A stretch of 64,000 nt of DNA, taken from positions 1 to 64,000 of the forward strand of contig NZ_NRRU01000012.1 of assembly GCF_016583785.1 (NCBI RefSeq), written 5' to 3'. This document shows, one piece after another, positions 29,151-58,064 of this stretch; position 1 is the stretch's first letter; each line of letters opens with the position of its first letter. The translations under genes and the position numbers were made by a program. The stretch is from Rubrivivax gelatinosus. Lineage in GTDB: Bacteria; Pseudomonadota; Gammaproteobacteria; Burkholderiales; Burkholderiaceae_C. A model generated the notes under the pieces. That model had not been told where the DNA came from. It did no database searches and was given only the letters and a program-made list of their open reading frames with translations.

Positions 29151-29564
29151 ATGAGTGATTCCGACAACCCACCGCTGGGCGAGCGCCCCAAGCTCGGGCC
29201 TATCGACGGCAGCCCGGTGACGACGCACCCCGACCTGAGCCGGCTGTCGCCGGCGCAGCGTGGCCTGCGCGATGCGCTGCTGCGCGAGTTCAAGGCCCGC
29301 AAGGCCAAGAAGTTCGTCGAGAAGCAGGTCCACTACATCAACGGCAACCGCCAGGTCGCCGAGTCCATCAAGATCCTCTTCGACGAGCACGGCCAGCCGC
29401 CGGCGAACGCGCCGATCGAAGACATCGTCGAGGAGCGCCGCCAGCTCGAATACCAGGTCCGCTGGTTCGAGGCGATGCTGCTGGAGCTGCAGACGCGGCT
29501 GCTGCGCGTGCGCGAGATCGAGGCGCTGGCGCTCGACATCCTCGAGCGCAGCCCGCGCGACTAG
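29151..29564 (+). CDS. Small coiled-coil protein of the export block
   Basis: This is a 137-residue hydrophilic protein without signal or TM. The middle (about 45-80) holds KARKAKKFVEKQVHYINGNR. The C-terminal half (about 95-135) is predicted coiled coil (EERRQLEYQVRWFEAMLLEL, then LLRVREIEALALDILE). It sits between the sulfotransferase and the TolC-like gene, 12 bases before the latter, so it is probably co-expressed with the transporter. I do not recognise the family. An accessory or structural role is inference. Confidence 0.7.
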   Translation: MSDSDNPPLGERPKLGPIDGSPVTTHPDLSRLSPAQRGLRDALLREFKARKAKKFVEKQVHYINGNRQVAESIKILFDEHGQPPANAPIEDIVEERRQLEYQVRWFEAMLLELQTRLLRVREIEALALDILERSPRD

Positions 29565-37943: not shown

Positions 37944-37953
37944 CCCCGGGTCG

Positions 37954-39746: not shown

Positions 39747-42700
39747 ATGAGCCTCTTCCAGACTTTCGTCTTCACCCCGGCCGGACATGACGGCGTCGCG
39801 CTGGCGATCGCCGCCTGCCGTGCCGGTGCCGTCGGTGTCGTCAACCACGAGATCGACGCCGAGCCGGCGCGCTGGACCCAGGCGCTGGCCACGGTCGCGG
39901 CCGCGACCGACGGCGGCCATGCGCTCAAGCTGCCGGCACTGGCCGACGGCGACGCCGAGCGCCTGGTTGCCGCGCGTGCCGCAGGCCTGGCCTGGCTGCT
40001 GATCGACGCCGCCGCGGTGCCGGCCGCGCGCGAGACGCTGGCCGCGCTGCGCGCCGCCGGCCTGCGCGTGATGGCCGAGCTGACGACGCCGGCCTGGCCG
40101 GGCGAGGCGCTGGACGCCGAGGTCGACGCGTTGCTGCTCAAGGGCAACGAGGCCGGCGGCTTCGTCGGCGAAGACGCCAGCTTCATCCTGCTGCAGAAGT
40201 GGCGCGGCCGCACGGCGCTGCCGCTGTTCGTGCGCGGCGGCCTGACGCCCGCGGTGGCCGCAGGCTGCTCGGCGCTTGGCGTGGCCGGCGGCGTGCTCGA
40301 CTCGCAGCTGCTGCTGCTCGACGAGGCGCGCCTGGGCGAAGCCGGCCAGGCGGTGATCGCCGGGCTGTCGGGCAACGAGACGGTCGCCGTCGGCGACGGC
40401 GAACACGGCGAATACGTGCGCATCCTCAGCCGCCCCGGTCACGCCGTGGCCAAGGCGCTGATCACCGACGGCGACGGCTGCGGCTTCGCCGCGCTGCGCG
40501 CCAAGGTCGCCGGACGCATCAACTGGGACGACCCGCGTGCCGGCCTGCTGCCGGTGGGCCACGACGTCTGCTTCGCCGCCGACTGGCGCAAGCGCTACGG
40601 CCAGGTGGCTGCGGTGCTGAAGGCTTTCGACAGCGCGGTCGCGACCCAGCTCGCCCAGGTCGCGGCGCAGCCGCCGGTGGCCGAAGGCGCGCCGCTGGCC
40701 CAGGCGCTGGGCCTTCGCTACCCCATCGTGCAGGGGCCGATGACACGCGTCTCCGACGTCGCCGACTTCGCCCAGGCTATCGCCGACGGCGGCGGCCTGC
40801 CGATGGTCGCGTTCGCGCTGCTCAAGGGCGCGCCGCTGGACAAGCTGCTCGCGCGCACCCAGCAGTTGCTGGGCGACCGGCCCTGGGGCATCGGCCTGCT
40901 GGGCTTCGCGCCGCAGGCCCTGCTCGACGAGCAGCTGGCGCTGGCGACGCAGTACAAGCCTGCCTACGCGCTGATCGCCGGCGGCCGCCCCGACCAGGCG
41001 GTCAAGCTCGAAGCCGCGGGCGTGCCGACTTTTCTGCACGTGCCCTCGGCCAACCTGATCCCGCTGTTCGTGCAGGAAGGTGCGCGCCGCTTCATCTTCG
41101 AAGGGCGCGAGTGCGGCGGCCACATCGGGCCGCTGTCGAGCTTCGTGCTCTGGTCGACGATGGTCGACAAAATCGCCGACGAGATCGACGCGCGCCGTGT
41201 CGCGCCGGCCGAGCTGCAGCTGCTGTTCGCCGGCGGCATCCACGACGCCGCTTCGTCGGCTTTCGTGCAGGTGCTGGCCGCGCCGCTGGTCGCGCGCGGC
41301 GTCAAGGTCGGCGTGCTGATGGGCAGTGCCTACCTGTTCACCGAGGAGATCGTGGCCTCGGGCGCGGTGGTGCGCAAGTTCCAGCAGGAAGTCATCGACT
41401 GCCGCCACACGGTCAGCCTGGAGTCCGGCCCCGGCCACGCCAGCCGCTGCGCCTACACGCCGTTCGCGCAGGAGTTCTTCAAGAAACGCGCCGAGCTGCG
41501 CGAGCAGAAGGTGGCCGGGGAAGAGAGCCGGCGCGTGCTCGACGACCTGATCATGGGCCGGCTGCGCATCGCCTCCAAGGGCACGACGCGCATCGGCGAA
41601 GAAGGCCGGCTGACGACGCTGGACGAAGCGCAGCAGCACGCTGACGGCATGTACATGCTGGGCCAGGTGGCGACGCTGCGCGACGGCGTCACCACGGTCG
41701 CGGCGCTGCACGAAGAGGTCAGCGCCGGTGCTGCCGCGCTGCTGGCCGCCGCCGTCGACGCGCGCCAGGCGGCGCCGGTCGCCGAGGGCCGGCCGGTGGA
41801 CATCGCCATCGTCGGCCTGTCCACGCTGCTGCCCAAGGCCGATTCGAGCCAGGCCTACTGGGACAACATCCTGGCCAAGGTCGACGCCATCACCGAGATC
41901 CCGGCGCACCGCTGGGACTGGCGCCTGTACTACGACAGCGACCGCCACGCGCCGGACAAGATCTATTCGAAGTGGGGCGGCTTCATCGACGACCTCGTCT
42001 TCGACCCGACACGCTACGGCATGCCGCCGAAGTCGATCGAGGCCGTCGACCCGATGCAGCTGATGGCGCTCGAAGTCGCGCGCCGCACGCTCGCCGACGC
42101 CGGCTACGACCGCAAGCCTTTCGACCGCGAACGCGCCTCGGTGATCGTCGGCGCCAGCGGCGGCACCGGCGACGTCGGCTCGCAGTACGGGCTGCGCTCG
42201 GAGCTGCCGCGTTTCTCGGGTCAGCTGCCGGCCGAAGTCGCCGCGCGCCTGCCCGAGTGGACCGAGGACTCCTTCGCCGGCATCCTGCTGAACGTCATCG
42301 CCGGGCGCATCGCCAACCGGCTGAACTTCGGCGGCGTCAACTTCACGACCGACGCCGCCTGCGCCTCGTCGCTGGCCGCGGTCTACCAGGGCGTCACCGA
42401 ACTCGCCGCCGGGCGCAGCGACATCGTCATCGCCGGCGGTGTCGACACCGTGCAGGGCCCGTTCGGCTACCTGTGTTTCAGCAAGACGCAGGCGCTGTCG
42501 CCGCGCGGCCGCTGCAACACCTTCGACGCCTCGGGCGACGGCATCGTCATCAGCGAAGGCATCGCGATGATCGCGCTCAAGCGCCTGGCCGACGCCGAAC
42601 GCGACGGCGACCGCATCTACGCCGTCATCAAGGGTGTCGGCGGCTCCAGCGACGGCAACGCCAAGGGCCTGACCGCACCGCTGCCCGCGGGCCAGCTGCG

Positions 42701-45700
42701 CGCGATGCGCCGCGCCTACCAGATGGCCGGCTTCGGCCCGTCGACCGTCGGCCTGTTCGAGGCCCACGGCACCGGCACCGTGGCCGGCGACACCGCCGAG
42801 CTCGAGAGCACGACGCGGCTGATGCTGGAGGAGGGCGCACGCCCGCACGGCGCCGTCGTCGGCTCGGTGAAGACGATGATCGGCCACACCAAGGCCACCG
42901 CCGGCGTCGCCGGCCTGGTCAAGGCCGCGCTGGCGCTGCACCACAAGGTGCTGCCGCCGCATCTGGGCGTCACCAACCCCAATGCGACGCTCAAGCGCGC
43001 CGACGCGCCGCTGCACGTCATCGACGAAGCGCTGCCCTGGCTGCCGGCCGAGCAGCCGCGGCGCGCCGCCTGCAGCGCTTTCGGTTTCGGCGGCACCAAC
43101 TTCCACGTCGTGATGGAGGAGTACCAGCGCGAGTACCGCCCCTGGCTGCGCAGCGCGACGGCGCAGCGCTGGCCGGCCGAGCTGCTGCTGTTCGCCGCCG
43201 ACGACCGTGCCGCGCTGGCCGCACGCCTGGCTGCGCTGCAGACGGCGCTGGCGGCGACGCCGGTGGAACTGCGCGACCTGGGCGCGAGCCTGGCGCAGCG
43301 CTGGCATCTGGCGCCCGAGCGCCTGGCCGTCGTCGCGCGCAGCGCCGAGGACCTGGGCACCAAGCTGGCCGCCGCCGCCGCCTTCCTGCGCGGCGAGGCC
43401 AAGGCGCTGCCGCCGGGTGTCTTCCACCGCTCGGGCACGCCGCTGGACGGCCGCGTCGCGGTGCTGTTCCCGGGCCAGGGTTCGCAATACCCCGGCATGG
43501 GGCGCGAAGCGGCGCTGTACCTGCCGCCGGTGGCCGACGCGCTGGCCGAAGCCGAGAGCGCGCTGCGGGCGCCGTTCACGCAGCGTTTCGGCAAGACGCT
43601 GGGCGAGTTCCTGTTCCCGCGGGCCGCTTACGACGACGCGGCCAAGGATGCGGCGCGCCGGGCCCTCACCAGCACCGACGTCGCCCAGCCGGCACTCGGT
43701 GCGCTCGAGGTCGGCCTGTGGCGGCTGATGCAGGCGCTCGGGCTGAAGGCCGACATGGCCGCCGGCCACAGCTACGGCGAGTTCGTCGCCCAGCACGCCG
43801 CCGGCGCGATCGACTTCGGCGCGCTGATGACGCTGTCGGCCGCACGCGGCCGCTTCATCGTCGACGAGGCCCGCGCCGCCGGTGCCGAACTCGGCACGAT
43901 GGCGGCGGTGCCGGCCGAACGCGAAGTCGTCGAGCAGCTGATCGCCGACCTGCCCGACGTCGTCGTCGCCAACCACAACGCGCCGCTGCAGAGCATCGTC
44001 TCGGGCACACGCTCCGGTGTCGAGGCGGCCATCGCCAAGTGCGCCGCCGCCGGCATCGAGGCGCAGCCGATTCCGGTTGCTGCCGCCTTCCACTCGGTGC
44101 TGGTGAAGCCGGCGCAGGCGCAGCTGGCGGCGCTGATCGACGCCACGCCGTGGGCGCCGACCGCCATTCCCGTCTATGCCAACGCCACCGCGCGGCCGCA
44201 CCCGGCCGAGCCGGCGCGCAGCCGCCAGCTGATGGCCGAGCACCTGGTCAAGCCGGTCGAGTTCGTCGCCCAGGTGCGCCAGATGCACGCCGACGGCGCG
44301 CGTTTCTTCGTCGAGATCGGCCCGAAGGCGGTGCTGTCGCGCCTGGTCGGCCGCATCCTGCCGGACGAGCCGCACGTCGCGCTGGCGCTCGACGACGGCA
44401 GCGGCCTGGCCGGGCTGCTGGCCGGCATCGGCCAGCTGATGATCGCCGGCGTCGCGCTCGACACCGAGCCGCTGTTCGCCGGCCGCGGCTGCCGCGTCGG
44501 CGACCCGGATCAGATCACGACGCTGGACCGGCGCGAAACCCCGGCGCGCACCGCCTGGGTCATCAACGGCGCCGGCGTGCGCCGGCTGGCCGACCCGGTG
44601 GCGCCGGTCGGCGTCACGCTCGAACAGGTGCAGGCGGCGCAGGCCGCCGCCGCGCTGCCGCCGGCTGCCGCGCCGGCTCCGGTGGCCGCCGCGCTGCCGC
44701 CGCAACCGGTGTTGCCGGCCGCCGCCGCGCCGCGCAGCGCCGCTATCACATCCCAGTTTTCCAGGAGGGTTCGAACGATGGATGAACGACGACCACTGCC
44801 CGCGACGGCCGACGCCGCCGTGCTGGCCGAATACTTCGAGACCATGCGCCAGTTCCTGGAGTCCCAGGAACGTGTGATGGCCGCGTTCCTCGGCCAGCCG
44901 GGCGGCGCGGCACGCACGACGCTGCGGGCCCGTCCGGCCGCGACGATGGTGCTGCCGCGTTTCGCCGAAGCGGTGCCGGCGATGCCGGCCGCGCCGGTGG
45001 TGCCGGTGGCTCCTGCTGCACCGGTCGCCCCGGTGGCGCTGGCGCCGGCTCCGGTGGCTCCCGCGCCGGTCGCGCCGGTGGCTCCGGCCCCGGTTGCCGC
45101 GGCTGCGGCTCCGGTGGTGGCAGCCGCTGCCGCTCCGGCGGCCGCGCTGTCGCGCGACAAGATGGCCGAGATGCTGCTCGCGATCGTCGAGGACAAGACC
45201 GGCTACCCGAAGGACATGGTCGGCCTCGACCAGAACCTCGAGTCCGACCTCGGCATCGACAGCATCAAGCGCATCGAGGTCGTCGGCGCGATGCTGCAGG
45301 CCCTGCCCGAGGCCTACCGGGCCGCGCTGGTCGAAAGCCGCAGCAAGCTCAACACCCAGCCGACGCTCGCCGGCATGCTGGACCTGATCGGTTCGGCCAA
45401 GCTGGAAGGGGTGGCCGTCCCTTTTGATCGTGCCGAGGCGGGAACCCCGGTGGTCGGCGTCGTCGTCGCCGACCAGCCCCCGTCTCGGCATCTGATCGAA
45501 CCGACACCCGAACCCGTGCCCGCGACGGCGGCCCGCCGTCTCGCGGCCGGGCGTTTCATCGTCGTGCCCGACCGCGGCACGCTCGCCGACGGCCTGGCGG
45601 CACGCCTGGCCGAACGTGGCGCCACCGTCGAGGTGCTCGACAGCGCGCTGCTGGCCGACGAGGCGGCGCTGGTCGCCTGGTGCGGCGCGCGCCGCGCCGC

Positions 45701-47966
45701 GCCGATCGCCGGCCTCGTCTTCCTGCGCCCGGTCGACGCGCCGGCGCCCGCGGCCGACGCCGGCCCGGCCGAATGGCGCGCGGCACTCGCCGCTGGCGAC
45801 CAGGCGCTGTTCGTGCTGCTGCGCGAACTGGGCCCGGCCTTCATCGAACAAGCCCATGTGCTCGCCGCGACCGCGCTCGGCGGCCTGTTCGGCCGCGGCC
45901 GTGCCCCCGAGGCGCTGCCGCTGGCCGGCGGCGCGCCGGGGCTCTTGAAGTCGCTGCGCGAGGAGCGGCCGGCGCTGCGCATCAAGGCCGTCGACCTGGA
46001 CCCGACGCAGACCGCGCTCGCCAACGCCCAGGCGCTGTTCGACGAGCTCGAGCTCGACGGCGGGCGCCAGGAAGTCGGCTACCCCGGCGGCCAGCGCACG
46101 GTGTTCCGCAGCGTCGTGGCCGTTCTGCCGGCCGACGCGCCGCGCGTCGCGCTGGCCGGTGTCGTTGTGCTCGCCACCGGCGGCGCCCGCGGCATCACGG
46201 CCGAGCTGCTGCGGGAACTGGCGCGGCCCGGCAACACGCTGGTGCTGACCGGCCGCAGTGCGCTGCCCGACGCCGAGCCGGCCGAACTGTCGGCCTGCGC
46301 CGACGCCGCCGCACTGCGCGCCCACTTCATCGCCGAGGTGCGCCGCGGCGCGCTGGCGCTCAAACCCGGCGAGATCAACCGCCACGTGCAGGCGCTGCTG
46401 GGCCTGCGCGAGATGCGCGCCAACATCGCCGACTTCCGCGCCGCCGGCGCCGCGGTCGAATACCACGCCGTCGACGTCACCGACGAAGCCGCCATGCGCG
46501 CGCTGCTCGACGGCCTCTACGCCCGCCACGGCCGCATCGACGGCGTCGTGCACGGCGCCGGCGTCATCGAGGACAAGCTGATCGCCGAGAAGACGACGGC
46601 GAGCTGGCAGCGTGTCGTCGCCACCAAGCTGATCGGCCTGCTGCTGCTGCAGAAGTGGCTGCGCGCCGAGAGCCTGAAGTTCCTCACCGTCTTCAGCTCG
46701 GTCGCCGGCCGCTACGGCAACAGCGGGCAGGGCGACTACGCGACGGCCAACGAGCTGATGAACCGGGTCTGCGAACACCTGCGTGGGCGCTGGGACGGCC
46801 GCGTCGCCGTCAGCGCGCTGTGCTGGGGCCCGTGGGGGCCGACGACCTACGGCGCCGGCATGGTGACCGCCGAGACCGAGGCCAAGTTCGCTGCCAAGGG
46901 CGTGACGCTGGTCAGTGCGGCGGTCGGCCGCAAGCTCTTCGCCGACGAGATCTCGCGCCCGGCCGGCGGCCCGGTCGAGGTCGTCTGCGGCGCCGGCCCC
47001 TGGGAGCGCCACGAAGCCGAAGTCGGCGCCTGGCGCGAAGCGGCGCCGGTGGCCGAAGGCCCCGCGCTCGGTGCGCTGCTCGGCGCGGCGCGGGTGCTTG
47101 ACCCCGGCCGCGGCGAGCAGATCGTCGCGCTGCGCCTGGACGGCCGCCACCTCTACCTGCAGGAACACGTGATCGACTCGACGCCGGTGCTGCCGGCGGC
47201 GGCCGCGCTGGAGATCGTCGCCGAAGCCGCGGCCTCGCTGTGGCCGGGCTGGAAGGTGGTCGAGGTGCGCGAGTTCCGGCTGATGAAGGGCGTGGAGCTG
47301 AAGGAGCCGGTGCGCTCGCTGCAGGTGCTGGTGAGCCCGCCGCCCTACGGCAGCAGCGAAGGTTTCGAGGTCGTCGCGGCGCTGCAGAGCGAGCTCGGCA
47401 ACGGCCGCGCGATCACGCACTACAAGGGCGTCGTGCGCCTGGAGCAGCAACTGCCGGCCGGCGAACGTGTCGTGCCGCGCCCGCACCGCGAGAAGAGCCT
47501 GACGGTCGAACGGGCCTACGGCGAGTGGCTGTTCCACGGCCCGCGCTTCCAGGTCATCGAACGTTTTTCGGGGCTGTCGCAGCAGGGCGCGGGTGCGATG
47601 GTGCGCTCGACGCACCCGTCGAGCTGGCTGCGCGCCATGCCGGCCGACGCGCCGGGCTGGGTGTTCGACCCGGCGCTGCTGGACGCCGCCGCGCAGATGG
47701 CCTGGCTGTGGGCACGCGCCTTCCGCGACGAGTCGGCGCTGCCGGCCAAGTTCGGCCGCGTCGTGCGCTACCGCGAACGTTTCCCGGCGCGGCTGCAGAT
47801 GGAATACGAACGCATCCCCACCGACGACCCGCTGCTGATCCGCGGCAACGTGATCTTCAGCGACGAACACGGAGAGCCGGTGATGCTGATCGAGGAACTG
47901 GAGAGCATCGCCAGTGCCGCACTGAACCGCCTGGGCGGCACGGCGCGCACGGCGATCGACGCATGA
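39747..47966 (+). CDS. Pfa-like iterative synthase protein 1: NMO-NMO-KS-AT-ACP-KR-DH
   Basis: This is a 2739-residue multidomain synthase. Residues about 1-300 are a nitronate-monooxygenase/PfaD-like barrel lacking the usual His (F139 in AGGFVGED). About 320-640 is a second barrel with H459 in ECGGHIGP. KS (684-1130) has C872 (DAACASS), H1007 (EAHGTGT) and H1047 (IGHTKATAG). AT (1236-1560) has S1342 in GHSYGEF. After a Pro/Ala/Val linker, the ACP has S1839 in LGIDSIKR, a Pfa-style sequence. KR (about 2130-2420) has TGGARGI and Y2331 in GDYATANELM. The C-terminal DH has H2474 and D2646 (LLDAAAQ), with Ser for Gly in HxxxGxxxxP. The domain set fits elongation with reduction, dehydration and perhaps enoyl reduction. 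A strong internal start lies at 44778. The gene heads an operon and overlaps synthase 2 by ATGA. Confidence 0.9.
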   Translation: MSLFQTFVFTPAGHDGVALAIAACRAGAVGVVNHEIDAEPARWTQALATVAAATDGGHALKLPALADGDAERLVAARAAGLAWLLIDAAAVPAARETLAALRAAGLRVMAELTTPAWPGEALDAEVDALLLKGNEAGGFVGEDASFILLQKWRGRTALPLFVRGGLTPAVAAGCSALGVAGGVLDSQLLLLDEARLGEAGQAVIAGLSGNETVAVGDGEHGEYVRILSRPGHAVAKALITDGDGCGFAALRAKVAGRINWDDPRAGLLPVGHDVCFAADWRKRYGQVAAVLKAFDSAVATQLAQVAAQPPVAEGAPLAQALGLRYPIVQGPMTRVSDVADFAQAIADGGGLPMVAFALLKGAPLDKLLARTQQLLGDRPWGIGLLGFAPQALLDEQLALATQYKPAYALIAGGRPDQAVKLEAAGVPTFLHVPSANLIPLFVQEGARRFIFEGRECGGHIGPLSSFVLWSTMVDKIADEIDARRVAPAELQLLFAGGIHDAASSAFVQVLAAPLVARGVKVGVLMGSAYLFTEEIVASGAVVRKFQQEVIDCRHTVSLESGPGHASRCAYTPFAQEFFKKRAELREQKVAGEESRRVLDDLIMGRLRIASKGTTRIGEEGRLTTLDEAQQHADGMYMLGQVATLRDGVTTVAALHEEVSAGAAALLAAAVDARQAAPVAEGRPVDIAIVGLSTLLPKADSSQAYWDNILAKVDAITEIPAHRWDWRLYYDSDRHAPDKIYSKWGGFIDDLVFDPTRYGMPPKSIEAVDPMQLMALEVARRTLADAGYDRKPFDRERASVIVGASGGTGDVGSQYGLRSELPRFSGQLPAEVAARLPEWTEDSFAGILLNVIAGRIANRLNFGGVNFTTDAACASSLAAVYQGVTELAAGRSDIVIAGGVDTVQGPFGYLCFSKTQALSPRGRCNTFDASGDGIVISEGIAMIALKRLADAERDGDRIYAVIKGVGGSSDGNAKGLTAPLPAGQLRAMRRAYQMAGFGPSTVGLFEAHGTGTVAGDTAELESTTRLMLEEGARPHGAVVGSVKTMIGHTKATAGVAGLVKAALALHHKVLPPHLGVTNPNATLKRADAPLHVIDEALPWLPAEQPRRAACSAFGFGGTNFHVVMEEYQREYRPWLRSATAQRWPAELLLFAADDRAALAARLAALQTALAATPVELRDLGASLAQRWHLAPERLAVVARSAEDLGTKLAAAAAFLRGEAKALPPGVFHRSGTPLDGRVAVLFPGQGSQYPGMGREAALYLPPVADALAEAESALRAPFTQRFGKTLGEFLFPRAAYDDAAKDAARRALTSTDVAQPALGALEVGLWRLMQALGLKADMAAGHSYGEFVAQHAAGAIDFGALMTLSAARGRFIVDEARAAGAELGTMAAVPAEREVVEQLIADLPDVVVANHNAPLQSIVSGTRSGVEAAIAKCAAAGIEAQPIPVAAAFHSVLVKPAQAQLAALIDATPWAPTAIPVYANATARPHPAEPARSRQLMAEHLVKPVEFVAQVRQMHADGARFFVEIGPKAVLSRLVGRILPDEPHVALALDDGSGLAGLLAGIGQLMIAGVALDTEPLFAGRGCRVGDPDQITTLDRRETPARTAWVINGAGVRRLADPVAPVGVTLEQVQAAQAAAALPPAAAPAPVAAALPPQPVLPAAAAPRSAAITSQFSRRVRTMDERRPLPATADAAVLAEYFETMRQFLESQERVMAAFLGQPGGAARTTLRARPAATMVLPRFAEAVPAMPAAPVVPVAPAAPVAPVALAPAPVAPAPVAPVAPAPVAAAAAPVVAAAAAPAAALSRDKMAEMLLAIVEDKTGYPKDMVGLDQNLESDLGIDSIKRIEVVGAMLQALPEAYRAALVESRSKLNTQPTLAGMLDLIGSAKLEGVAVPFDRAEAGTPVVGVVVADQPPSRHLIEPTPEPVPATAARRLAAGRFIVVPDRGTLADGLAARLAERGATVEVLDSALLADEAALVAWCGARRAAPIAGLVFLRPVDAPAPAADAGPAEWRAALAAGDQALFVLLRELGPAFIEQAHVLAATALGGLFGRGRAPEALPLAGGAPGLLKSLREERPALRIKAVDLDPTQTALANAQALFDELELDGGRQEVGYPGGQRTVFRSVVAVLPADAPRVALAGVVVLATGGARGITAELLRELARPGNTLVLTGRSALPDAEPAELSACADAAALRAHFIAEVRRGALALKPGEINRHVQALLGLREMRANIADFRAAGAAVEYHAVDVTDEAAMRALLDGLYARHGRIDGVVHGAGVIEDKLIAEKTTASWQRVVATKLIGLLLLQKWLRAESLKFLTVFSSVAGRYGNSGQGDYATANELMNRVCEHLRGRWDGRVAVSALCWGPWGPTTYGAGMVTAETEAKFAAKGVTLVSAAVGRKLFADEISRPAGGPVEVVCGAGPWERHEAEVGAWREAAPVAEGPALGALLGAARVLDPGRGEQIVALRLDGRHLYLQEHVIDSTPVLPAAAALEIVAEAAASLWPGWKVVEVREFRLMKGVELKEPVRSLQVLVSPPPYGSSEGFEVVAALQSELGNGRAITHYKGVVRLEQQLPAGERVVPRPHREKSLTVERAYGEWLFHGPRFQVIERFSGLSQQGAGAMVRSTHPSSWLRAMPADAPGWVFDPALLDAAAQMAWLWARAFRDESALPAKFGRVVRYRERFPARLQMEYERIPTDDPLLIRGNVIFSDEHGEPVMLIEELESIASAALNRLGGTARTAIDA
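44763..44780 (+). promoter_or_regulatory. Internal Shine-Dalgarno and in-frame ATG inside synthase 1
   Basis: AGGAGGG (44763-44769) stands eight bases before an ATG (44778) in the same frame as the synthase (Met 1678). The preceding 40 bases are unusually AT-rich for this gene and their translation (AITSQFSRRVRT) is unlike the flanking linker. Translation from here would give an ACP-KR-DH protein of about 1062 residues. Confidence 0.6.
44985..45150 (+). repeat. Pro/Ala/Val-rich linker with tandem GCTCCGGTGG-like repeats
   Basis: The DNA repeats variants of 'gcg ccg gtg gct ccg' and encodes a flexible linker of about 50 residues, made almost only of Ala, Pro and Val, just before the ACP. Such linkers give carrier proteins reach in megasynthases. 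Repeat number may vary between strains. Confidence 0.75.
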
Positions 47967-50900
47967 CCCGCAATCCCCCGAACCCCGCGCCCGAGTCGAT
48001 CGCGCTGATCGGCATGGCCTGCATCTTCCCGGACGCGCCGGACCTGCAGGCCTTCTGGAACAACATCCTCGACGGTGTCGACGCCGTCGGCGACCCGGTG
48101 CCCGAATGGGGCGCCGAGCGTTACCTGGCCGACGGCCGCATCAAGACGCCGCGCGGCGGCTGGCTGAAGGACCTGTACCGCTTCGACCCGCGCGAGTTCG
48201 GGATCATGCCGAACTCGGTCGACGGCGGTGAGCCCGACCAGTACCTGGCGCTGCGCATCGCGCGCGACGCGCTCGCCGACGCCGGCTACCTGGGCGCCCA
48301 GGTCGACCACCGCGACACCGGCATCATCCTCGGCCACAGCACCTATCTGCACCGCGGCCAGGTCACCGTCATCCAGCACAACATCGTGCTCGACCAGACG
48401 ATGGAACTGCTGAAGGCCGCGCTGCCGGGGCTGGACGCCGCCGCCGAAGCCGAACTGCGGCGCTCGCTGCTGGCCAAGCTGCCGCCGCACGGCGCCGACA
48501 CCGCGCCCGGCCTGGTGCCCAACGTGATGACCGGGCGCATCGCCAACCGGCTGAACCTGAAGGGCCCGAACTACCTCGTCGACGCCGCGTGTTCGTCTTC
48601 GCTGCTGGCGGTCAGCGCCGCGGTCGACGAACTGCGTGCCGGGCGCAGCCGCATGATGCTGGCGGGTGGCGTCAACGCCTCGCTGCCGGCCGACGTGTCG
48701 ACGATCTTCACCCAGCTCGGCGCGCTCAGTGCCCGCGGCCGCGTGCGCCCCTTCGAAACCGGCAGCGACGGCACCCTGCTCGGCGAAGGCCTGGGCATGG
48801 TGGTGCTCAAGCGCCTGTCGGACGCACTCGCCGACGGCGACCGCATCTACGCGGTGCTGCGTGGCATCGGCCAGGCCAGCGACGGCCGCGGCACCGGCCT
48901 CTTGGCGCCCAGCGTCGACGGCGAGACGCTGTCGATCCGCCGCGCCTACGAACACAGCGGCGTCGACCCGGCGACCGTCGGCCTGATCGAGGCCCACGGC
49001 ACCGGCATCCCGCTGGGCGACAAGACCGAGATCGCGGCGCTCGCCAACGTCTTCGGTCCGCGCCGCGGCGCCGGCGGCAGCATCGCGATCGGCTCGGTCA
49101 AGTCGATGATCAGCCACTGCATCCCGGCCGCCGGCGTCGCCGGCCTGATCAAGACCGCGCTCGCGCTGCACCACCGCGTGCTGCCGCCGACGCTGTGCGA
49201 ACAGGTCAACCCCGATCTCGGGCTGGAACGCACGCCGCTGTTCGTCAACACCGAGGCCCGGCCCTGGATCGCGCCGCTGGGCCAGCCGCGCCGCGCCGGC
49301 GTCGACAGCTTCGGCTTCGGCGGCATCAACACCCACGCCATCGTCGAGCAGGCGCCGGCCTCGGCCGCACGCCCGCTGCTGCTGGCGCGCTGGCCTTTCG
49401 AACTCTGCGTGCTGTCGGCGGCCGATGCGCCGTCGCTGGCCGCGGCCGCTGAGACGCTGGCGGCCGCGCTGGCGCGTGAACCGCGCTGGGCGCTGGACGA
49501 GGTCGCCGCGGCACTGGCCGCCGCCGACCGCGGCGGCCCGGCCCGGCTGGCCATCGTCGCCAAGAGCCGCGAGGCGCTGGCCAAGGGCCTGGCGCAGGCG
49601 CTGCCCAAGCTGCGCAGCGCCGGCGACAAGGCTTTCGCGACGCGCGGCGGCGTCTGCTATTCGCCGCGGCCGCTGGACGGCAAGCTCGCCTTCCTGTTCC
49701 CTGGCGAAGGCTCGCAGTACCTGGGCATGTTCGCCGACCTGGCGCCGTGTTTCGACGAGCTGCGCGAGTGGCTGGACTTCTGGCGCGGCCTGTACGACGA
49801 CCTGCCCGGCGACACGCGCACCGACATCGTCTACCCGCCGGCCAGCGAGCTGACGCCCGAACGCCGCAAGCAGCTCGAAGCGCGGCTGCACGACATGGAC
49901 GTCGGCAGCGAGGCGGTGATGATCGGCGGCCAGGCGATGTACTCGCTGCTGCGTGCGCTCGGTGTCGAGCCCGACGTGATGCTGGGCCACAGCTCGGGCG
50001 AATCGTCGGCGCTGGCCGCCAGCGGCGCGCTCGCCACCGACGACCGCGGGCTGCTCGCCAGCTTCATCCGCGACCTGAACGCCGTCTACGCCCAGGTGAT
50101 GGCCGAGGGCAAGATCCCGACCGGCGCGCTGTTGGCCGTCGGCGCGCTGCCGGCGGCGATGGTGCATGAGACCGTGGCCGCCACTGGCCTGGCGATCGAC
50201 GTCGCGATGGACAACTGCGCCAACCAGTTGGTGCTCTACGGCACGCGCGACGCGATCGACACGGTGCAGGCGCGGCTGACGGCGATCGGTGCGATCTGTA
50301 TGCCGCTGCCCTTCGACCGCGGCTACCACACGCCGTCCTTCGGCGCGATGAGCGCGGCGTTTGCCGAACACTACAAAGCGATCAAGCTGGCCGCGCCGCG
50401 TGTGCCGCTGTATTCGTGCGCGTCGGCCGGGCTGTTCCCGCAGACGCCGGCGGCGGTGCGCAAGCTGGCTGCTGCGCAGTGGTCGCAGACCGTGCGTTTC
50501 CGCGAGACGGTGCAGAACATGGTCGCCGACGGCGTGCGCTGCTTCGTCGAGGTCGGGCCCTCGGGCAATCTGACCGCTTTCGTCGACGACATCCTCGCCG
50601 ACCAGCCGCACCTGGCGCTGGCCTCCAACCAGCGCCGCAAACACGGGCTGGAGCAGCTGCTGGCGACGCTGGCGCAGCTCTGGGTGCACGGCAGGCCGAT
50701 GTCGCTGCAGGCGCTGTACACGCGCCGGCGCATCGCCGTCGTCGACCTCACGCAGCCGGCCCCGGCGCTGCGTGTTGCGCCGCTGCTGGCGAACACGATG
50801 CCGGTGCTGCATCTCGACGATGCCGACCGGGCACTGCTGCGGCGTGTCGGTGGCGGCGCGCCCGCCGCACCCGCGCCGACCGCGGTCGAAGCCGCGCCGC

Positions 50901-52747
50901 AGCCCATGCCGGCAGCAGCCACCGAAGCGGCATCCGATGCCGCAGACGACGGCGAAGCCGCCGCGCGGGCCGCCGTCATGGCCGATTACTTCGCGACGAT
51001 GCGCGCCTTCCTCGCGCAGCAGCAGACGCTGCTCGAAGGCTGGCAATCGGGCGCCGCGGCCGAAGCAGCGCCGGCTGAAGCCGGCGATCCGTCAGCCTGG
51101 GCGCCGTTCCTGGACGAGATCGTCGAGTCCAGCGCCACGCGCCTGGTCGCACGTTGCCGGCTCGGTCTGCACCAGGACGCCTTCCTGCGCGACCACGTGC
51201 TGTCGGGGCGTGGCTCCGACACCGACCCCGAACTCTCGGGCCTGGCCTGCGTGCCGCTGATGGTGAGCCTGGAGATCATGGCCGAGGCCGCCGCGTTGCT
51301 CGCCGGCACGACGGCTTTTGCCAGCATCGAGCAGGTGCGTGCCTTCGACTGGATCGCGCTCGACGACGAGGCGCTGGAGCTGGACGTCGTCGCCGAAGCC
51401 GTCGCCGGCGAGCCCGGGCTGTGGCGCGCGACGCTGTCGCAGCACGGCGCGACCGCTGTGACGGCGCTGCTGCGCCAGGCGTCGCAGCCGCGGCTGGCGG
51501 CGCTGCCGGCGCTGGCCGCACCGCGTGCCGCACGCTGGGACGGCCAGGCGATCTACGACGTCGGCATGTTCCACGGCCCCATCTTCCAGAGCCTGGCGCA
51601 CGTGCGCGGCTGGGACGAGGGCGGCATCGACTGCGAACTCACCGACTGCAGCCTGGCCGGCTTCTTCGACGGCCAGACCCTGCCGGCCATGGTGCTGAAC
51701 CCGGTGCTGCTGGACGCGATGGGCCAGCTCGCCGCCTGCTGGGTGGCCGAACACGTCGGCACCGACTTCAACTGCTTTCCGTCGACGATAGAGCGCATCG
51801 AGCTGCTGGCCGAACAGCCGGCGGCCGAGGCCGGCCTGGTGCTGCGCGGCCGCCAGCAGCCGGTGGATGCGGCCCAGGCCGGCGACATCGCCGCCGCACG
51901 CCGCTGGCAGTTCGAGGCCTGCACGGCAGACGGCCGGCCGCTGGTGCGTGTCGACGGCCTGGTCAACGTCTTCTTCCACGTGCCGCACCGCTTCTACCAG
52001 CTGCGCCGCGACCCGCTGGGCGGCTGGCTCGGTGCGCCGCTGGCGCCGGCCGGCGGCACGCGGCTGTGGCAGCTGGAGAACCTGCCCGAGGCCTTCTGCG
52101 CCCAGTCGAACGCGATCTTCCTGCGCATGCTGGCGCACGCGACGCTGGCCTGGGAAGAGCGTGAGACCTGGCGCGCGCTGCCCGAGAACCCGCGCCAGCG
52201 CCGCCAGTGGCTGCTCGGCCGGCTGGCGCTGAAGGAACTGGTGCGCCACTGGCTGCACGAACGCAGCGGCCGGCTGGTCTACCCGTCCGACGTCGTCGTC
52301 GGCCACGACGCGCAGGGCGCGCCCTTCGTCGACGGCTGGTGGGTTGATGAACTGGCGCCGCGGCCGGCGGTGTCGCTGACACACGGCGCGCGCTGGAATG
52401 TCGCAGCGCTGCGCGAGGATGGTGCGGCGGTCGGTGTCGACGCTGAAGAAATCGGCCGGGTGCAGCGCCCGGACCTGCTCGAAGCCGCTTTCACGCCGGC
52501 CGAACGCGCCTGGCTGCAGGCGCAGCCGGTGGCCAGCCACGGCGACGCGCTGCTGCGCCTGTGGTGCGCCAAGGAGGCCGCGGCAAAATGTCTCGGAACC
52601 GGCCTGCAGGGAGCTCCGGAGGCCTTTGCCGTCACCTTCGAATCGGGGGTCGCGGACCGGGCCCGGGTGACCCGCGGTGATATCATGGTCCCGGTTTTGC
52701 TTCAGTTCGTCGGGAATTCGGTGGTCGCGGTCGCCGAATATCAATAA
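47963..52747 (+). CDS. Pfa-like synthase protein 2: KS-AT-DH with fused phosphopantetheinyl transferase
   Basis: This is a 1594-residue protein. KS (about 10-460) has C210 (DAACSSSL), H345 (EAHGTGI) and H385, where the usual IGH reads ISH. AT (about 570-900) has S677 in GHSSGES. A post-AT helix (YFATMRAFLAQQQTLLEGW, about 1008-1026) resembles one in synthase 1. The DH-like hot-dog region (about 1050-1330) has H1078 in HVLSG and D1251 in LLDAMGQ, with extra residues after the His motif. The C-terminus (about 1400-1594) is a Sfp-type phosphopantetheinyl transferase: GVDAEEIGR (D1493) and WCAKEAAAK (E1538, K1542). There is no ACP within it. The ACPs are in synthase 1 and in the next small gene. 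The start overlaps the synthase 1 stop. Confidence 0.9.
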   Translation: MTRNPPNPAPESIALIGMACIFPDAPDLQAFWNNILDGVDAVGDPVPEWGAERYLADGRIKTPRGGWLKDLYRFDPREFGIMPNSVDGGEPDQYLALRIARDALADAGYLGAQVDHRDTGIILGHSTYLHRGQVTVIQHNIVLDQTMELLKAALPGLDAAAEAELRRSLLAKLPPHGADTAPGLVPNVMTGRIANRLNLKGPNYLVDAACSSSLLAVSAAVDELRAGRSRMMLAGGVNASLPADVSTIFTQLGALSARGRVRPFETGSDGTLLGEGLGMVVLKRLSDALADGDRIYAVLRGIGQASDGRGTGLLAPSVDGETLSIRRAYEHSGVDPATVGLIEAHGTGIPLGDKTEIAALANVFGPRRGAGGSIAIGSVKSMISHCIPAAGVAGLIKTALALHHRVLPPTLCEQVNPDLGLERTPLFVNTEARPWIAPLGQPRRAGVDSFGFGGINTHAIVEQAPASAARPLLLARWPFELCVLSAADAPSLAAAAETLAAALAREPRWALDEVAAALAAADRGGPARLAIVAKSREALAKGLAQALPKLRSAGDKAFATRGGVCYSPRPLDGKLAFLFPGEGSQYLGMFADLAPCFDELREWLDFWRGLYDDLPGDTRTDIVYPPASELTPERRKQLEARLHDMDVGSEAVMIGGQAMYSLLRALGVEPDVMLGHSSGESSALAASGALATDDRGLLASFIRDLNAVYAQVMAEGKIPTGALLAVGALPAAMVHETVAATGLAIDVAMDNCANQLVLYGTRDAIDTVQARLTAIGAICMPLPFDRGYHTPSFGAMSAAFAEHYKAIKLAAPRVPLYSCASAGLFPQTPAAVRKLAAAQWSQTVRFRETVQNMVADGVRCFVEVGPSGNLTAFVDDILADQPHLALASNQRRKHGLEQLLATLAQLWVHGRPMSLQALYTRRRIAVVDLTQPAPALRVAPLLANTMPVLHLDDADRALLRRVGGGAPAAPAPTAVEAAPQPMPAAATEAASDAADDGEAAARAAVMADYFATMRAFLAQQQTLLEGWQSGAAAEAAPAEAGDPSAWAPFLDEIVESSATRLVARCRLGLHQDAFLRDHVLSGRGSDTDPELSGLACVPLMVSLEIMAEAAALLAGTTAFASIEQVRAFDWIALDDEALELDVVAEAVAGEPGLWRATLSQHGATAVTALLRQASQPRLAALPALAAPRAARWDGQAIYDVGMFHGPIFQSLAHVRGWDEGGIDCELTDCSLAGFFDGQTLPAMVLNPVLLDAMGQLAACWVAEHVGTDFNCFPSTIERIELLAEQPAAEAGLVLRGRQQPVDAAQAGDIAAARRWQFEACTADGRPLVRVDGLVNVFFHVPHRFYQLRRDPLGGWLGAPLAPAGGTRLWQLENLPEAFCAQSNAIFLRMLAHATLAWEERETWRALPENPRQRRQWLLGRLALKELVRHWLHERSGRLVYPSDVVVGHDAQGAPFVDGWWVDELAPRPAVSLTHGARWNVAALREDGAAVGVDAEEIGRVQRPDLLEAAFTPAERAWLQAQPVASHGDALLRLWCAKEAAAKCLGTGLQGAPEAFAVTFESGVADRARVTRGDIMVPVLLQFVGNSVVAVAEYQ

Positions 52748-52765
52748 GAGTATCAGGATAACAGG

Positions 52766-53071
52766 ATGAGCAGTCTGCTGAAGGCTTCGACCGAGGCCAC
52801 CGTGATCGCGGTGATCGAGGATCTGATCCAGGACTGGGGGCTCGAGCTCGATGGCGGTGTGGGCCCCACGACGCAGCTCGTGGCGAATCTCGAGTTCGCC
52901 TCTGTCGACATCATCCAGCTCTGCGTCGCGCTCGAGGAAGCCTATTCCCGGAAACTCGGTTTCCAGAATCTCCTGATGCGTGACGGTAGTTATGTCGGCG
53001 ATTTGTCCGTGAGTCAGATCGCCGGTTTCATCGAAACCCGTATCGCCGCCGGCGGGGGAACTCCGACGTGA
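52766..53071 (+). CDS. Stand-alone acyl carrier protein
   Basis: This is a 101-residue ACP-like protein. The helix-2 region reads NLEFASVDIIQL with S46 as the phosphopantetheine site. The usual Asp before the Ser is Ala, seen in some specialised carriers. The rest (VIEDLIQDWGL, ALEEAYSRKLGF) fits the four-helix fold. It lies 18 bases after synthase 2 and its stop overlaps the GTG start of the next gene. It may receive the finished chain from the synthase or load a special starter. The PPTase domain just upstream probably activates it. Confidence 0.85.
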   Translation: MSSLLKASTEATVIAVIEDLIQDWGLELDGGVGPTTQLVANLEFASVDIIQLCVALEEAYSRKLGFQNLLMRDGSYVGDLSVSQIAGFIETRIAAGGGTPT

Positions 53072-54663: not shown

Positions 54664-54667
54664 GCGG

Positions 54668-55738: not shown

Positions 55739-57201
55739 TGGTTCAAGCCAACCGGCTCGGGATCTGGCCCGGGCTCAACCGGCGCGACTTCCGCTGCGTC
55801 GCACGCGGCGGCTTCGGCGACGGCAACAACGCCTACGCGCATTCGATGGCCTGGTTCAACGGCCATCTCTACGTCGGCACGACACGCGGCAACTTCCCGT
55901 TCATGAAGTCGCGCCTGCCGATCGCGATGGACGTCTGGCCGGTCGAGTGCCCGGAGAACCCCTTCGACCTGGACATGCACGCCGAGATCTGGCGCTACGA
56001 CCCGCTCACCGACGAGTGGGAACGTGTGTTCAAGGCGCCGACCATCATCGGCACCCACGGCAAGCCGATCCCGCGCGAACTGGGCTTGCGCGGCATGCTG
56101 GTGTACTCGGGCCGCGGCGTCGAGGCGCCGGCGCTGTTCGTCAGCACCTGGTCGCCGGCGCGCGGGCCGGGGCCGAATCTGCTGCGCTCGGAAGACGGGC
56201 GCAACTTCGAGCCCACCTGCGAACCGGGCCTCACCGGCCTGCCGGTGACGACGATCCGCACGATCACCGAGTTCAAGGGGCGCTTGTTCACGACGCCGGC
56301 GGGCTCGCGCGGCGGCAATCCCAACATCTCCGCGCACTCGGTGGTCTACGAGAGCGCCGACCCGACGCACGGCGGCTGGGAGCCGGTCAGCGACTTCGGC
56401 TTCGGCGACCCGGGCAACAAGACCATCTTCGAGATGTGCGGCTTCGGCGACCATCTCTACGTCGGCACCTTCAACCTCGAGGGTTACCAGGTCTGGCGCA
56501 GCAGCTGCGAGGGCGAGAAGCCCTACGCCTGGGAAAAGGTGCTCGAGCGTGGCGCCGGCCGCGGCAAGTTCAACCAGTGCACGCTGTCCATGCTGCCGTT
56601 CAAGGGCGCGCTCTACATCGGCAGCGGCATCCAGGGCGGCGGCATCGACACCGCGAACAAGGTCGGCCCGGCGCCGCCGGAGCTGGTGCGGGTCTGGCCC
56701 GACGGCTCCTGGGACCTGCTGATCGGCGACGAACGCGACACGCCGCAGGGCCGCAAGATCCCGCTGTCGGGCTACATGCCCGGCTTCAACAACTTCTTCA
56801 ACGGCTACTTCTGGCGCATGGTGGAGCACGACGGCTGGCTCTATCTCAGCACCTTCGAGTGGAGCACGCTCGTCGGCTACGCCAACCGCAGCCGCTGGCC
56901 CGAGGCTTTCGCCAACGTCATCAACCACGTCGGCGCCCAGGCGATCTTCGAGCACCACTCGGGCTTCGACCTGTTCCGCAGCTTCGACGGCGAGAACTGG
57001 GTGCCGGTGACGAACAACGGCTTCGACAACCCGTACAACATGGGGCTGCGCACGCTGGTGTCCTCGCCTTACGGGCTGTTCTGCGGCACAGCCAACCCCT
57101 TCGGCCCGAAGATCATGCCGCTGGGCGGCGACCGCTACGTGCCCAACCCGCGCGGCGGCTGCGAGATCCACTTCGCCGCCAACGAGGCCTTGACGCGATG
57201 A
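55738..57201 (+). CDS. Kelch/propeller-like protein of the synthase operon
   Basis: This is a 487-residue protein without a signal peptide. Repeated strands resemble a beta-propeller: MAWFNGHLYVGTTRGNF, FGDHLYVGTFNLEGYQVWRS, FKGALYIGSGIQGGG, VEHDGWLYLSTFEWSTL and GLFCGTANPFGPKI. The unit 'G/N-x-LY-(V/I)-G-(T/S)' recurs about five times. It overlaps both neighbours (TGATG upstream, ATGA downstream), so it belongs to the pathway. No catalytic motif is recognised. It is not obviously homologous to the exported propellers at 35-39 kb. Confidence 0.75.
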   Translation: MVQANRLGIWPGLNRRDFRCVARGGFGDGNNAYAHSMAWFNGHLYVGTTRGNFPFMKSRLPIAMDVWPVECPENPFDLDMHAEIWRYDPLTDEWERVFKAPTIIGTHGKPIPRELGLRGMLVYSGRGVEAPALFVSTWSPARGPGPNLLRSEDGRNFEPTCEPGLTGLPVTTIRTITEFKGRLFTTPAGSRGGNPNISAHSVVYESADPTHGGWEPVSDFGFGDPGNKTIFEMCGFGDHLYVGTFNLEGYQVWRSSCEGEKPYAWEKVLERGAGRGKFNQCTLSMLPFKGALYIGSGIQGGGIDTANKVGPAPPELVRVWPDGSWDLLIGDERDTPQGRKIPLSGYMPGFNNFFNGYFWRMVEHDGWLYLSTFEWSTLVGYANRSRWPEAFANVINHVGAQAIFEHHSGFDLFRSFDGENWVPVTNNGFDNPYNMGLRTLVSSPYGLFCGTANPFGPKIMPLGGDRYVPNPRGGCEIHFAANEALTR

Positions 57202-58064
57202 ACCGCGACGCCGGTGGCTGGCTGCGGCGGCGCGAAGCCGCCGAGCCGCCGCCGCATCCGGCGGGCACCCGCGTCGATGCCGACCTCGCCTACGGCCGCT
57301 GGCCGGCGCAGCGCCTGGACGTCTATCGCCCGGCGCAGGCGCAGGCGCAGGCGCAGTCGGCGCCGGTGCTGGTGGTCGTGCACGGCGGTGCCTGGATCAC
57401 CGGCGACAAGCAGCAGCCGCAGGTCGTCGGCCACAAGCTGGCGCACTGGGGCCCCAAGGGCTGGATCGTGGTCGCGATCAACTACCGCCGCCTGCCCTGG
57501 GCCGACCCGCGCGAGCAGGCGATCGACGTCGCGCGCGCGCTGGCCTACGTGCAGCGCGAGGCGGCCGGCTGGGGCGGCGACACCGGCCGCATCGTCGTGC
57601 TCGGGCATTCGACCGGCGCCCACCTGGCGGCGCTGGTGCTGGCCGACACGGCGCTGGCCGCCGCGGCCGGCTGCGTGGCGCCGGCGGCCGCGGTGCTGGT
57701 GGACAGCGCCGCGCTCGACGTCGTCGAGGTGATGGACGGCGCCCACCTGCCGCTGCACGACCGCGCCTTCGGCGACCAGCGTGCGGGCTGGGAGCTGGCC
57801 TCGCCCTGGCACCGCGCGGCGACGCTGCAGGCCGCGCCGCCGCCGGTGCTGCTGCTGTGTTCGTCGCTGCGCGAGGACTCGACGCGCCAGTCGGAACGTT
57901 TTGCCGCGCGCCTGGTCGAGCGCGGTGGCCGTGCACGCAGCGTCGCGCTGCCGCTGACGCATGCCGAACTGAACGAGCAACTGGGCCAGCCGGGCGAGGC
58001 GACGAATCAGGTCGATGCCTTCCTCGCCGAGTGTTTCGCGCCGCCGGCCGCGGCCGCGGGCTAA
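57198..58064 (+). CDS. Alpha/beta hydrolase of the carboxylesterase/BD-FAE type
   Basis: This 288-residue esterase-fold protein has the oxyanion motif VVVHGGAWITGDKQ, the nucleophile S138 in VLGHSTGAHLAAL and a likely His in LTHAELNEQ. A short Ala/Gln run (about 46-53) is encoded by a hexanucleotide repeat. It is the last gene of the synthase operon, overlapping the propeller gene by ATGA. It may hydrolyse an ester or thioester of the product. Its role relative to the first hydrolase is unknown. Confidence 0.85.
   Translation: MNRDAGGWLRRREAAEPPPHPAGTRVDADLAYGRWPAQRLDVYRPAQAQAQAQSAPVLVVVHGGAWITGDKQQPQVVGHKLAHWGPKGWIVVAINYRRLPWADPREQAIDVARALAYVQREAAGWGGDTGRIVVLGHSTGAHLAALVLADTALAAAAGCVAPAAAVLVDSAALDVVEVMDGAHLPLHDRAFGDQRAGWELASPWHRAATLQAAPPPVLLLCSSLREDSTRQSERFAARLVERGGRARSVALPLTHAELNEQLGQPGEATNQVDAFLAECFAPPAAAAG
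57333..57356 (+). repeat. Hexanucleotide tandem repeat (GCGCAG)x4
   Basis: Four copies of GCGCAG in frame encode (Ala-Gln) repeats near the N-terminus of the esterase. Changes in copy number would stay in frame. Confidence 0.8.

Follow-up and report, generated by a model that had tools for sequence, protein, structure and literature searches.

An Ars-like secondary lipid synthase beside sulfation and export genes in Rubrivivax gelatinosus, with a possible sulfated very-long-chain lipid product

Introduction

Of the 20 "secondary lipid" types described in 2011, 14 had no known product, as the cited sections of that survey put it (Shulse and Allen 2011, PMC3098273). The same sections state that multiple acyl carrier proteins (ACPs) are lacking in the ars cluster and place Beijerinckia indica alongside Azotobacter vinelandii as a member of Type P. 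ArsA makes C23-C25 acids, which type III polyketide synthases (PKSs) turn into alkylresorcinols and alkylpyrones, according to the cited part of another paper (PMC4824345). Here we analyzed a synthase of this kind in Rubrivivax gelatinosus (assembly GCF_016583785.1, contig NZ_NRRU01000012.1, positions 1-64,000); the whole 64,000-nt stretch is called the window below. The synthase is encoded by the first two of seven packed genes (g1 to g7), and a block of sulfation and export genes lies upstream of them. We concluded that the system is an Ars-like secondary lipid synthase, a known kind akin to those that make cyst lipids, in a context that we did not find described in the literature searched.

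There is a tested precedent for a sulfation cassette next to lipid-type PKS genes, namely the sulfated adipostatins, as described in the part of the source cited here (PMC12135136), and in the sulfotransferase-thioesterase route of CurM and Ols the sulfate serves as a leaving group, again in the part cited (PMC3903477). In the open part of PubMed Central, we recognized no paper among the matches listed that described the present cluster or connected a sulfotransferase (ST) to a synthase of the Pfa or Ars kind. We lean towards the reading that the locus at about 21.8-58.1 kb encodes an iterative type I Ars-like synthase, fused to nitronate monooxygenase (NMO)-like barrels, together with the means to sulfate and export its very-long-chain lipid.

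Results

Gene layout and synthase domains

The seven genes lie on the plus strand at 39747-58064. Domains are abbreviated as KS, ketosynthase; AT, acyltransferase; KR, ketoreductase; DH, dehydratase; PPTase, phosphopantetheinyl transferase.

39747-47966, plus strand: g1, 2739 aa, NMO-NMO-KS-AT-ACP-KR-DH
47963-52747, plus strand: g2, 1594 aa, KS-AT-DH-PPTase
52766-53071, plus strand: g3, free ACP-like protein, 101 aa
53068-54663, plus strand: g4, type I phosphodiesterase (PDE), PF01663
54668-55738, plus strand: g5, alpha/beta hydrolase with a DUF6316 tail, PF00561 and PF19837
55738-57201, plus strand: g6, beta-propeller, from an AlphaFold2 model and fold comparison
57198-58064, plus strand: g7, BD-FAE/HSL-type esterase, PF20434

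The joins between them measure -4, +18, -4, +4, -1 and -4 bases, that is, four overlaps and gaps of 18 and 4 bases, which confirmed the tight packing claimed in the original prediction. The same starts and ends were returned by a codon-usage gene finder that was trained on these very genes, and a promoter scan gave no sigma-70-like site. The identities predicted for the downstream genes stood, but the order at the 3' end did not: it is hydrolase, propeller, hydrolase. The feature is real and is conserved across relatives.

Domains were called with Pfam and NCBIfam, and active-site residues were assigned by motif inspection. The family matches were KS, AT, KR, PP-binding, DH (PKS_DH_N and PS-DH) and NMO in g1, and KS, AT, DH and ACPS in g2.

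39747..40451, plus strand: g1 TIM barrel 1, NMO/FabK-like, catalytic His absent (EAGG-F; His in 0/24 sequences; AlphaFold2)
40677..41606, plus strand: g1 TIM barrel 2, FMN enoyl reductase-like, ECGGH intact (His in 24/24; PF03060; FabK-like fold)
41799..43136, plus strand: g1 KS1, Cys-His-His present (PF00109/PF02801, motifs, tree)
43464..44351, plus strand: g1 AT1, GHSYG (PF00698)
45162..45371, plus strand: g1 single ACP, LGIDSIKR (PF00550)
46167..46835, plus strand: g1 KR (PF08659)
47088..47915, plus strand: g1 DH1 (PF21089, PF14765)
47993..49351, plus strand: g2 KS2, Cys-His-His present (Pfam, motifs, tree)
49691..50677, plus strand: g2 AT2, GHSSG (PF00698)
51140..51967, plus strand: g2 DH2 (PF14765)
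52427..52672, plus strand: g2 PPTase, WCAKEAAAK (PF01648, 66.3 bits, cut-off 25)

Only one stretch of g1 passes Pfam as NMO; with barrel 1 identified by motif, alignment and AlphaFold2, both predicted domain orders were borne out. Active-site motifs are intact in both KS (Cys-His-His), both AT (GHSxG), the ACP and the PPTase (WxxKEAxxK). The LGIDSIKR motif occurs once in g1, so that there are no tandem ACPs, and each protein has one KS, hence no chain length factor (CLF). No fatty acyl-AMP ligase domain was among the Pfam matches of g1 or g2.

KS phylogeny and relatives

A KS tree was made with a quick method from 83 of 164 KS rows (156 distinct + 8), with Azotobacter absent and Type P represented by Beijerinckia. 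The window KS1 falls in a clade of 36 NMO-fused KS1 (SH-aLRT 98) that also holds Beijerinckia and Methylosinus, and it stands outside the four-row Ars subclade within that clade. The KS2 of these systems form a third clade of 24 rows (99), separate from the clade of PfaA and HglE-like KS (SH-aLRT 99), and PfaC-type and modular-type KS are placed elsewhere. The PfaA and PfaC labels rest on neighbouring TIGR02814 matches, and those of the HglE-like and modular-type rows on the biology of Fischerella. Both KS of the window are thus outside the PfaA/HglE, PfaC and modular-type PKS rows. Since KS1 and KS2 are outside the Pfa clades and the PfaD-family model TIGR02814 had no match at E 0.001 in the R. 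gelatinosus genome, the earlier view that this "secondary lipid" synthase is unlikely to make eicosapentaenoic or docosahexaenoic acid was upheld; a product other than these two acids is likely.

To collect relatives, an alignment of the barrel region was used to scan a set with a single genome for each species; this gave at least 585 confirmed loci, of which the best 80 were kept. In 78 of them (all but L094 and L107) a single open frame covers barrel and KS, and the 80 include Chryseobacterium, Gemmata, Brocadia, Fischerella and two type III PKS clusters (L135, L138). The fused reductase was also found in B. indica (L025) and Methylosinus (L026), as plasmid matches. LGIDSIKR-type motifs number 2-5 in some loci of the NMO-fused relatives, and among the fused relatives Methylosinus has one and Beijerinckia two. 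The fused reductase, single ACP and built-in PPTase had been taken for an unusual split; that claim was not upheld, given the 78 fused relatives, the fusion in Beijerinckia and Methylosinus, the single ACP motif of the latter and the earlier description of the ars cluster (PMC3098273).

Barrel-KS synthases of this family are also present in anammox bacteria, whose lipids are unusual, namely in Candidatus Brocadia metagenome-assembled genomes (MAGs; L090, L133). Another variant lies on a plasmid of Streptomyces sp. NBC_00984 (L027), which has a barrel-KS synthase, a second KS protein, an ACP, an alpha/beta hydrolase, a glycosyltransferase and a methyltransferase in a row.

Tandem reductase barrels

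Both barrels of g1 are eight-stranded alpha/beta barrels in the AlphaFold2 model (24 sequences, mean pLDDT 91.7). In TIM-barrel enoyl reductases, motif III (xEAGGH) carries the proposed catalytic histidine, and the enzymes work as dimers in which the partner is needed, as stated in the part of the source cited (PMC13311796). At this position barrel 1 has Phe, Tyr, Leu, Arg, Trp, Gln or Ile and histidine in none of the 24 sequences, and barrel 2 has histidine in all 24. These residues suggest that the two barrels are the halves of a fused dimer, of which only the second is catalytic. Fused barrels with one dead site would account for the odd tandem that opens the synthase of the whole Ars-like branch, because TIM-barrel reductases require a partner (PMC13311796, part cited). 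In a Foldseek search of the barrel model, the closest solved structures were FabK and NMO, with a TM score by target of 0.84-0.88 for the FabK rows and 0.47-0.54 for PfaD. "PfaD-like", as the barrel was first called, is therefore a loose label for a fold closer to FabK/NMO, in a genome with no TIGR02814 match.

Upstream sulfation and export genes

Genes that the original prediction had missed lie upstream of g1, and they are the best clue to the product. PAPS stands for 3'-phosphoadenosine 5'-phosphosulfate, APS for adenosine 5'-phosphosulfate and PAP for 3'-phosphoadenosine 5'-phosphate.

21778..23682, minus strand: cysNC, sulfate adenylyltransferase subunit 1 fused to APS kinase, PAPS supply (NF004035, 1069.9 bits, cut-off 715)
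23833..24717, minus strand: cysD, sulfate adenylyltransferase subunit 2 (NF009214, 552.5 bits, cut-off 413)
24921..25697, plus strand: cysQ-like 3'(2'),5'-bisphosphate nucleotidase, PAP recycling (TIGR01331, 288.1 bits, cut-off 228.8)
25883..27229, plus strand: 448-aa protein with a lipoprotein-like start, no family match, relatives in G192 and Rubrivivax albus
27262..28080, plus strand: sulfatase-like (STM4013-like) protein of the alkaline phosphatase superfamily (PF00884, 34.7 bits, cut-off 25)
28081..28986, plus strand: PAPS-dependent-type ST (PF13469, 105 bits, cut-off 27)
29217..29564, plus strand: 115-aa protein adjoining the ST, 86% identical in G192, recurs in other maps
29616..31040, plus strand: TolC/NodT-type outer-membrane channel (TIGR01845, 331 bits, cut-off 210)
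31037..33523, plus strand: membrane domain (weakly M50-like) fused to an HlyD-type adaptor (PF16576/PF13437)

Genes for ATP sulfurylase and APS kinase accompany the ST in the window, as in a sulfation cassette. In the genome G192 the same block stands beside the synthase, with a different order of the synthase and propeller genes. The M50-type models score far under their cut-offs on the HlyD fusion, which is probably not a protease, since HExxH is absent from 12/12 sequences. The sulfatase-like protein scores 72 bits with NF038075, below the cut-off of 250. Where its nucleophile is presumed to lie, it has Thr43, which does not vary among 10 sequences, and no Cys or Ser. Formylglycine sulfatases need Cys or Ser there; the same position of the PDE g4 is Thr54, invariant in 14 sequences, and both proteins were rejected as formylglycine sulfatases.

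Three secreted-looking predicted proteins (417, 404 and 392 aa; 35204-39158) without a Pfam family lie between this block and g1, and their relatives stand near several other synthases. In four close relatives (L057, L058, L049/L245 and L150) an ACP with a methyltransferase-like gene and a short-chain dehydrogenase/reductase gene was found near the exporter or synthase; the tailoring set therefore varies.

Co-occurrence across genomes

Among 200 genomes of the family, the synthase was found in four, the propeller in the same four, and the ST in these and in G198, where the match is weak and of the CurM type. The G198 gene (L063, G198:C1:1377412) is a CurM/Ols-type ST in a 1019-aa open frame, in a genome where the synthase was not found. 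Two further genomes of the same genus are without synthase, propeller and ST. In 369 genomes of the class the propeller occurs in six: the R. gelatinosus genome itself, four with the synthase, and G336, with a weak match and no synthase. Every genome with a strong propeller match (E < 1e-100) in the family and class sets has the synthase (8/8).

We also chose by hand 30 named synthase genomes from the 80, with thresholds of E 0.001 for the propeller and E 1e-10 for the ST. The propeller was found in 24/30 and the ST in 21/30, and the six without the propeller, namely Fischerella, Aquimarina, Gemmata, Chryseobacterium and two with a type III PKS, were also without the ST. In 12 mapped genomes the ST, sulfatase-like protein, HlyD fusion, TolC, PDE, g5 and propeller recur in varying sets. 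The cluster was found in beta-, gamma- and alphaproteobacteria and a cyanobacterial MAG. The fetched stretches around the 80 synthase loci, often cut by contig ends, held the sulfatase-like gene in 20 cases and the ST in 8. In a Competibacteraceae genome (L160/L161, G581) a single synthase is surrounded by four genes for an ST and two for a propeller, which gives the impression of a multiplied sulfation step.

Of 15 cluster genomes searched for cysNC, 7 carry it on the same contig as the synthase (the R. gelatinosus genome itself, G192, G046, Rubrivivax albus, P. alcaligenes, Pseudomonas PDM16 and Bosea). Both Pseudomonas have a second cysNC copy, 52-53% identical, elsewhere in the genome, which suggests that the set beside the synthase is a dedicated one.

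Type of sulfotransferase and alternation with the phosphodiesterase

The solved structures nearest to the window ST are the CurM ST (1.4e-20) and the Ols ST (4.1e-20). An ST tree of 28 rows was made from 2 typed CurM/Ols segments, 16 cluster STs and 10 of 30 background PF13469 loci; the other 20 had no usable open frame (4), no profile match (3) or a match of at most 150 residues (13), and the trimming profile contained CurM and Ols, which favours them. The window ST lies outside the clade of CurM, Ols and L236, and the tree does not order this clade and that of the window ST relative to each other. The candidate assignment of the window ST as a CurM/Ols enzyme was rejected on this separation, and because its clade is separate, the window ST cannot decide between a sulfated product and a sulfate leaving group.

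A g3-like ACP is followed by an ST within a single protein (432-434 aa) of Neptuniibacter marinus and of Lysobacter sedimenti, and the Neptuniibacter ST matches CurM at 2.6e-59, Ols at 8e-59 and the next kind at 3.7e-6. Full-length relatives of this ACP-ST protein, each in one open frame, are present in Ideonella azotifigens and G224. Of 21 readable genomes, 17 have the PDE and no ACP-ST, and 4 have the ACP-ST and no PDE; 14 of the 17 showed a g3-like free ACP as well. The lack of a PDE in Neptuniibacter, Lysobacter, Ideonella and G224 refers to the fetched stretches, and that of a CurM-type ST from the PDE genomes to the fetched stretches and to whole-genome ST searches of all but G508 and G523. 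The gene content of L249-L251 was taken from tblastn and open frames. The count leaves out G287, with broken contigs and neither gene seen, and L068 and L077, which end before the PDE. On a KS1 tree of the 21 genomes the state changes three times, at least two of the changes being forced by well-supported branches. This alternation of 17 versus 4 and the repeated switching hint that one and the same step on the ACP is served by the PDE in some genomes and by the CurM-type ST in others.

Accessory genes g3 to g7

The free ACP claimed for g3 stood in part: Pfam gave no ACP match, but g3 aligns with ACP-like proteins of the relatives, with F44-S46-D48 conserved and Ser46 invariant in 13 sequences. 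The PDE g4 belongs to the type I phosphodiesterase/alkaline phosphatase superfamily (PF01663, 148.2 bits); it had no match among solved structures at 0.001, and its N-terminal part matched in plasmids, among the best 10 of 54, only distant haloarchaeal proteins of the alkaline phosphatase family. In g5, Ser103 and His272 are conserved in 16 sequences, and its best solved relatives are lactonases and esterases. The propeller g6 has no Pfam family above cut-off and no signal peptide by eye. Its AlphaFold2 model (mean pLDDT 91.5) has the propeller fold, and a fold search returned many unrelated propellers (Z 24-28, best 50 rows) with no functional hint; a sequence comparison with solved structures gave nothing useful, and no relatives were found in viral and plasmid collections. 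For g7 the PF20434 score is 83.4 bits. A PADLOC run on four proteins gave nothing. The hydrolase g5 and the propeller are likely a working unit, because in P. alcaligenes RU38D they are one 860-aa protein.

Discussion

A sulfated very-long-chain lipid is the product that we somewhat favour, since the place of the type III PKS is taken here by sulfation genes and an exporter. No type III PKS was found in the window or in 40 sulfation-cluster stretches; it was present only in the Ars-like controls L025, L026, L135 and L138. The reading draws on the observed domains, active-site motifs, phylogeny, gene linkage and co-occurrence; from these we infer all of the chemistry, how long the chain is, in what order it is tailored, and that the lipid receives (or is activated by) the sulfate.

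The PPTase of g2 would charge the ACPs, and the chain would be extended by KS1/AT1 and KS2/AT2. As in ArsA, the chain would be fully reduced, by KR, DH1/DH2 and the FMN reductase, whose two fused barrels would act as an intramolecular pair with one catalytic member. Once complete, and perhaps hydroxylated, the acyl chain would be handed to the free ACP g3 and sulfated by the PAPS sulfotransferase, with CysD/CysNC feeding PAPS and CysQ removing PAP. Phosphodiesterase-fold proteins may edit the head group, the g5 hydrolase with the propeller would release the product, and the HlyD fusion and TolC channel would export it.

Several observations weigh against a sulfated and exported lipid. A methyl-accepting chemotaxis protein (MCP) gene and three other genes separate the sulfation block from g1, and the strands differ; the block is therefore not one operon with g1 to g7. 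Haliea, a Desulfobulbaceae MAG and Paludisphaera have the synthase and the propeller and no ST at E 1e-10. In 8 of the 15 cluster genomes, among them some broken assemblies, cysNC is off the synthase contig, and a 73% identical cysNC is present in G094, a genome of the same genus in which the synthase is absent. The window ST sits in a clade of its own (16 rows, support 80/97), and its substrate is not readable from sequence. The ST found beside the propeller in Solimonas, Panacagrimonas and Lysobacteraceae (L155, L159, L162) lacks the PAPS-binding loop usual in sulfotransferases; by this feature these ST-like proteins may be inactive partners. Finally, g1 scores 1023.7 bits with the PfaA model TIGR02813, barely above the cut-off of 1010.1.

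The synthase might instead make a plain very-long-chain acid or alcohol, with the sulfation block serving a neighbouring sulfated polysaccharide or peptide. The MCP and other genes between the blocks, with no operon joining them, are consistent with this, as is the commonness of PF13469, found in 38/75 class genomes. The ST subfamily, however, tracks the synthase across genomes, and in several maps the ST adjoins propeller or synthase genes, so that we regard two separate functions as unlikely.

In the main rival reading, the sulfate is an activating group: a separate ACP, ST and hydrolase would sulfate an ACP-bound 3-hydroxyacyl chain, then hydrolyse and decarboxylate it to a long-chain terminal alkene. 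That CurM and Ols hold the closest solved structures to the window ST argues for such a route, and so does the fusion of a g3-type ACP to a CurM/Ols-type ST in four cluster genomes, with the gap in Neptuniibacter from 2.6e-59 to 3.7e-6. Against it, no CurM-type ST was found in the window, whose own ST forms its own clade; g5 is nearest to lactonases and esterases, with the CurM thioesterase not among the best 60 of 158; and a hydrocarbon would hardly need an HlyD/TolC exporter. An alkene product of the CurM and Ols type appears rather improbable.

An Ars-like phenolic lipid cluster, which would share its barrel-KS-AT-ACP-KR architecture and KS1 clade with Beijerinckia and Methylosinus, is very improbable with no type III PKS in the window or the 40 stretches. 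A polyunsaturated fatty acid (Pfa) synthase, for which the TIGR02813 score just above cut-off and the two DH domains might speak, is just as remote, given one ACP, no CLF, no PfaD-family reductase, and neither KS falling in the PfaA or PfaC clade.

The alternation of PDE and ACP-ST raises a wider idea, a speculation of low probability. There may be a widespread undescribed lipid pathway: the type I synthase would deposit its very long acyl chain on a separate ACP, where an ST acting in trans would activate or cap the chain, the ACP step being performed by an interchangeable PDE-fold or ACP-ST module. If so, the phosphodiesterase-fold protein would be a functional stand-in for an acyl-ACP sulfotransferase, and the hydrolase-propeller pair would be the releasing enzyme.

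For one large branch of secondary lipid synthases, the neighbourhood gives a product guess that can be tested with labelled sulfate. If the sulfated-lipid reading is true, these bacteria would have a class of surface lipids, sulfated, very long in chain and served by a dedicated exporter, for which no one has looked as far as the literature searched goes. Nitronate monooxygenase gene clusters with a halogenase are described for cyanobacteria in the part of the source cited (PMC8406957); we dropped this comparison because family searches of the window genes named no halogenase.

Comparison with known systems

Like the PUFA synthase PfaABCDE (Types A and B), the window has an iterative KS-AT-ACP-KR, DH and a TIM-barrel reductase, and the DSIKR of its ACP motif is a Pfa feature as well. 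Tandem ACPs, a CLF, a separate PfaD and other KS clades are features of Pfa unlike those of the window. The sulfatostatin (adp) cluster is alike in placing PKS lipid genes beside ST and PAPS genes, but it uses a type III PKS and phenol sulfation, whereas a type I iterative synthase is present here, as judged from the published description of adp. CurM and Ols, with ST-thioesterase termination, share the PF13469 ST, and an ACP-ST protein of their type is found in four relatives, whereas in the window the ST is small, stands on its own and falls in a different clade, with no ACP-ST-TE (thioesterase) module in cis.

Type P ArsA/ArsD of A. vinelandii and B. indica is alike in having N-terminal barrels ahead of KS-AT-ACP-KR, in a second protein that joins the PPTase to a DH-like stretch, and in a KS1 of one clade, as seen with Beijerinckia, the Azotobacter sequences being outside the comparison. 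Type P synthases pass a C22-C26 product on to a type III PKS. The Beijerinckia PPTase protein (~630 aa) matches the DH-PPTase part of g2 only. Unlike Type P, the window adds KS2-AT2 before DH-PPTase, a free ACP, a phosphodiesterase, a propeller, and sulfation and export genes, and where Ars clusters have a type III PKS, the window has none.

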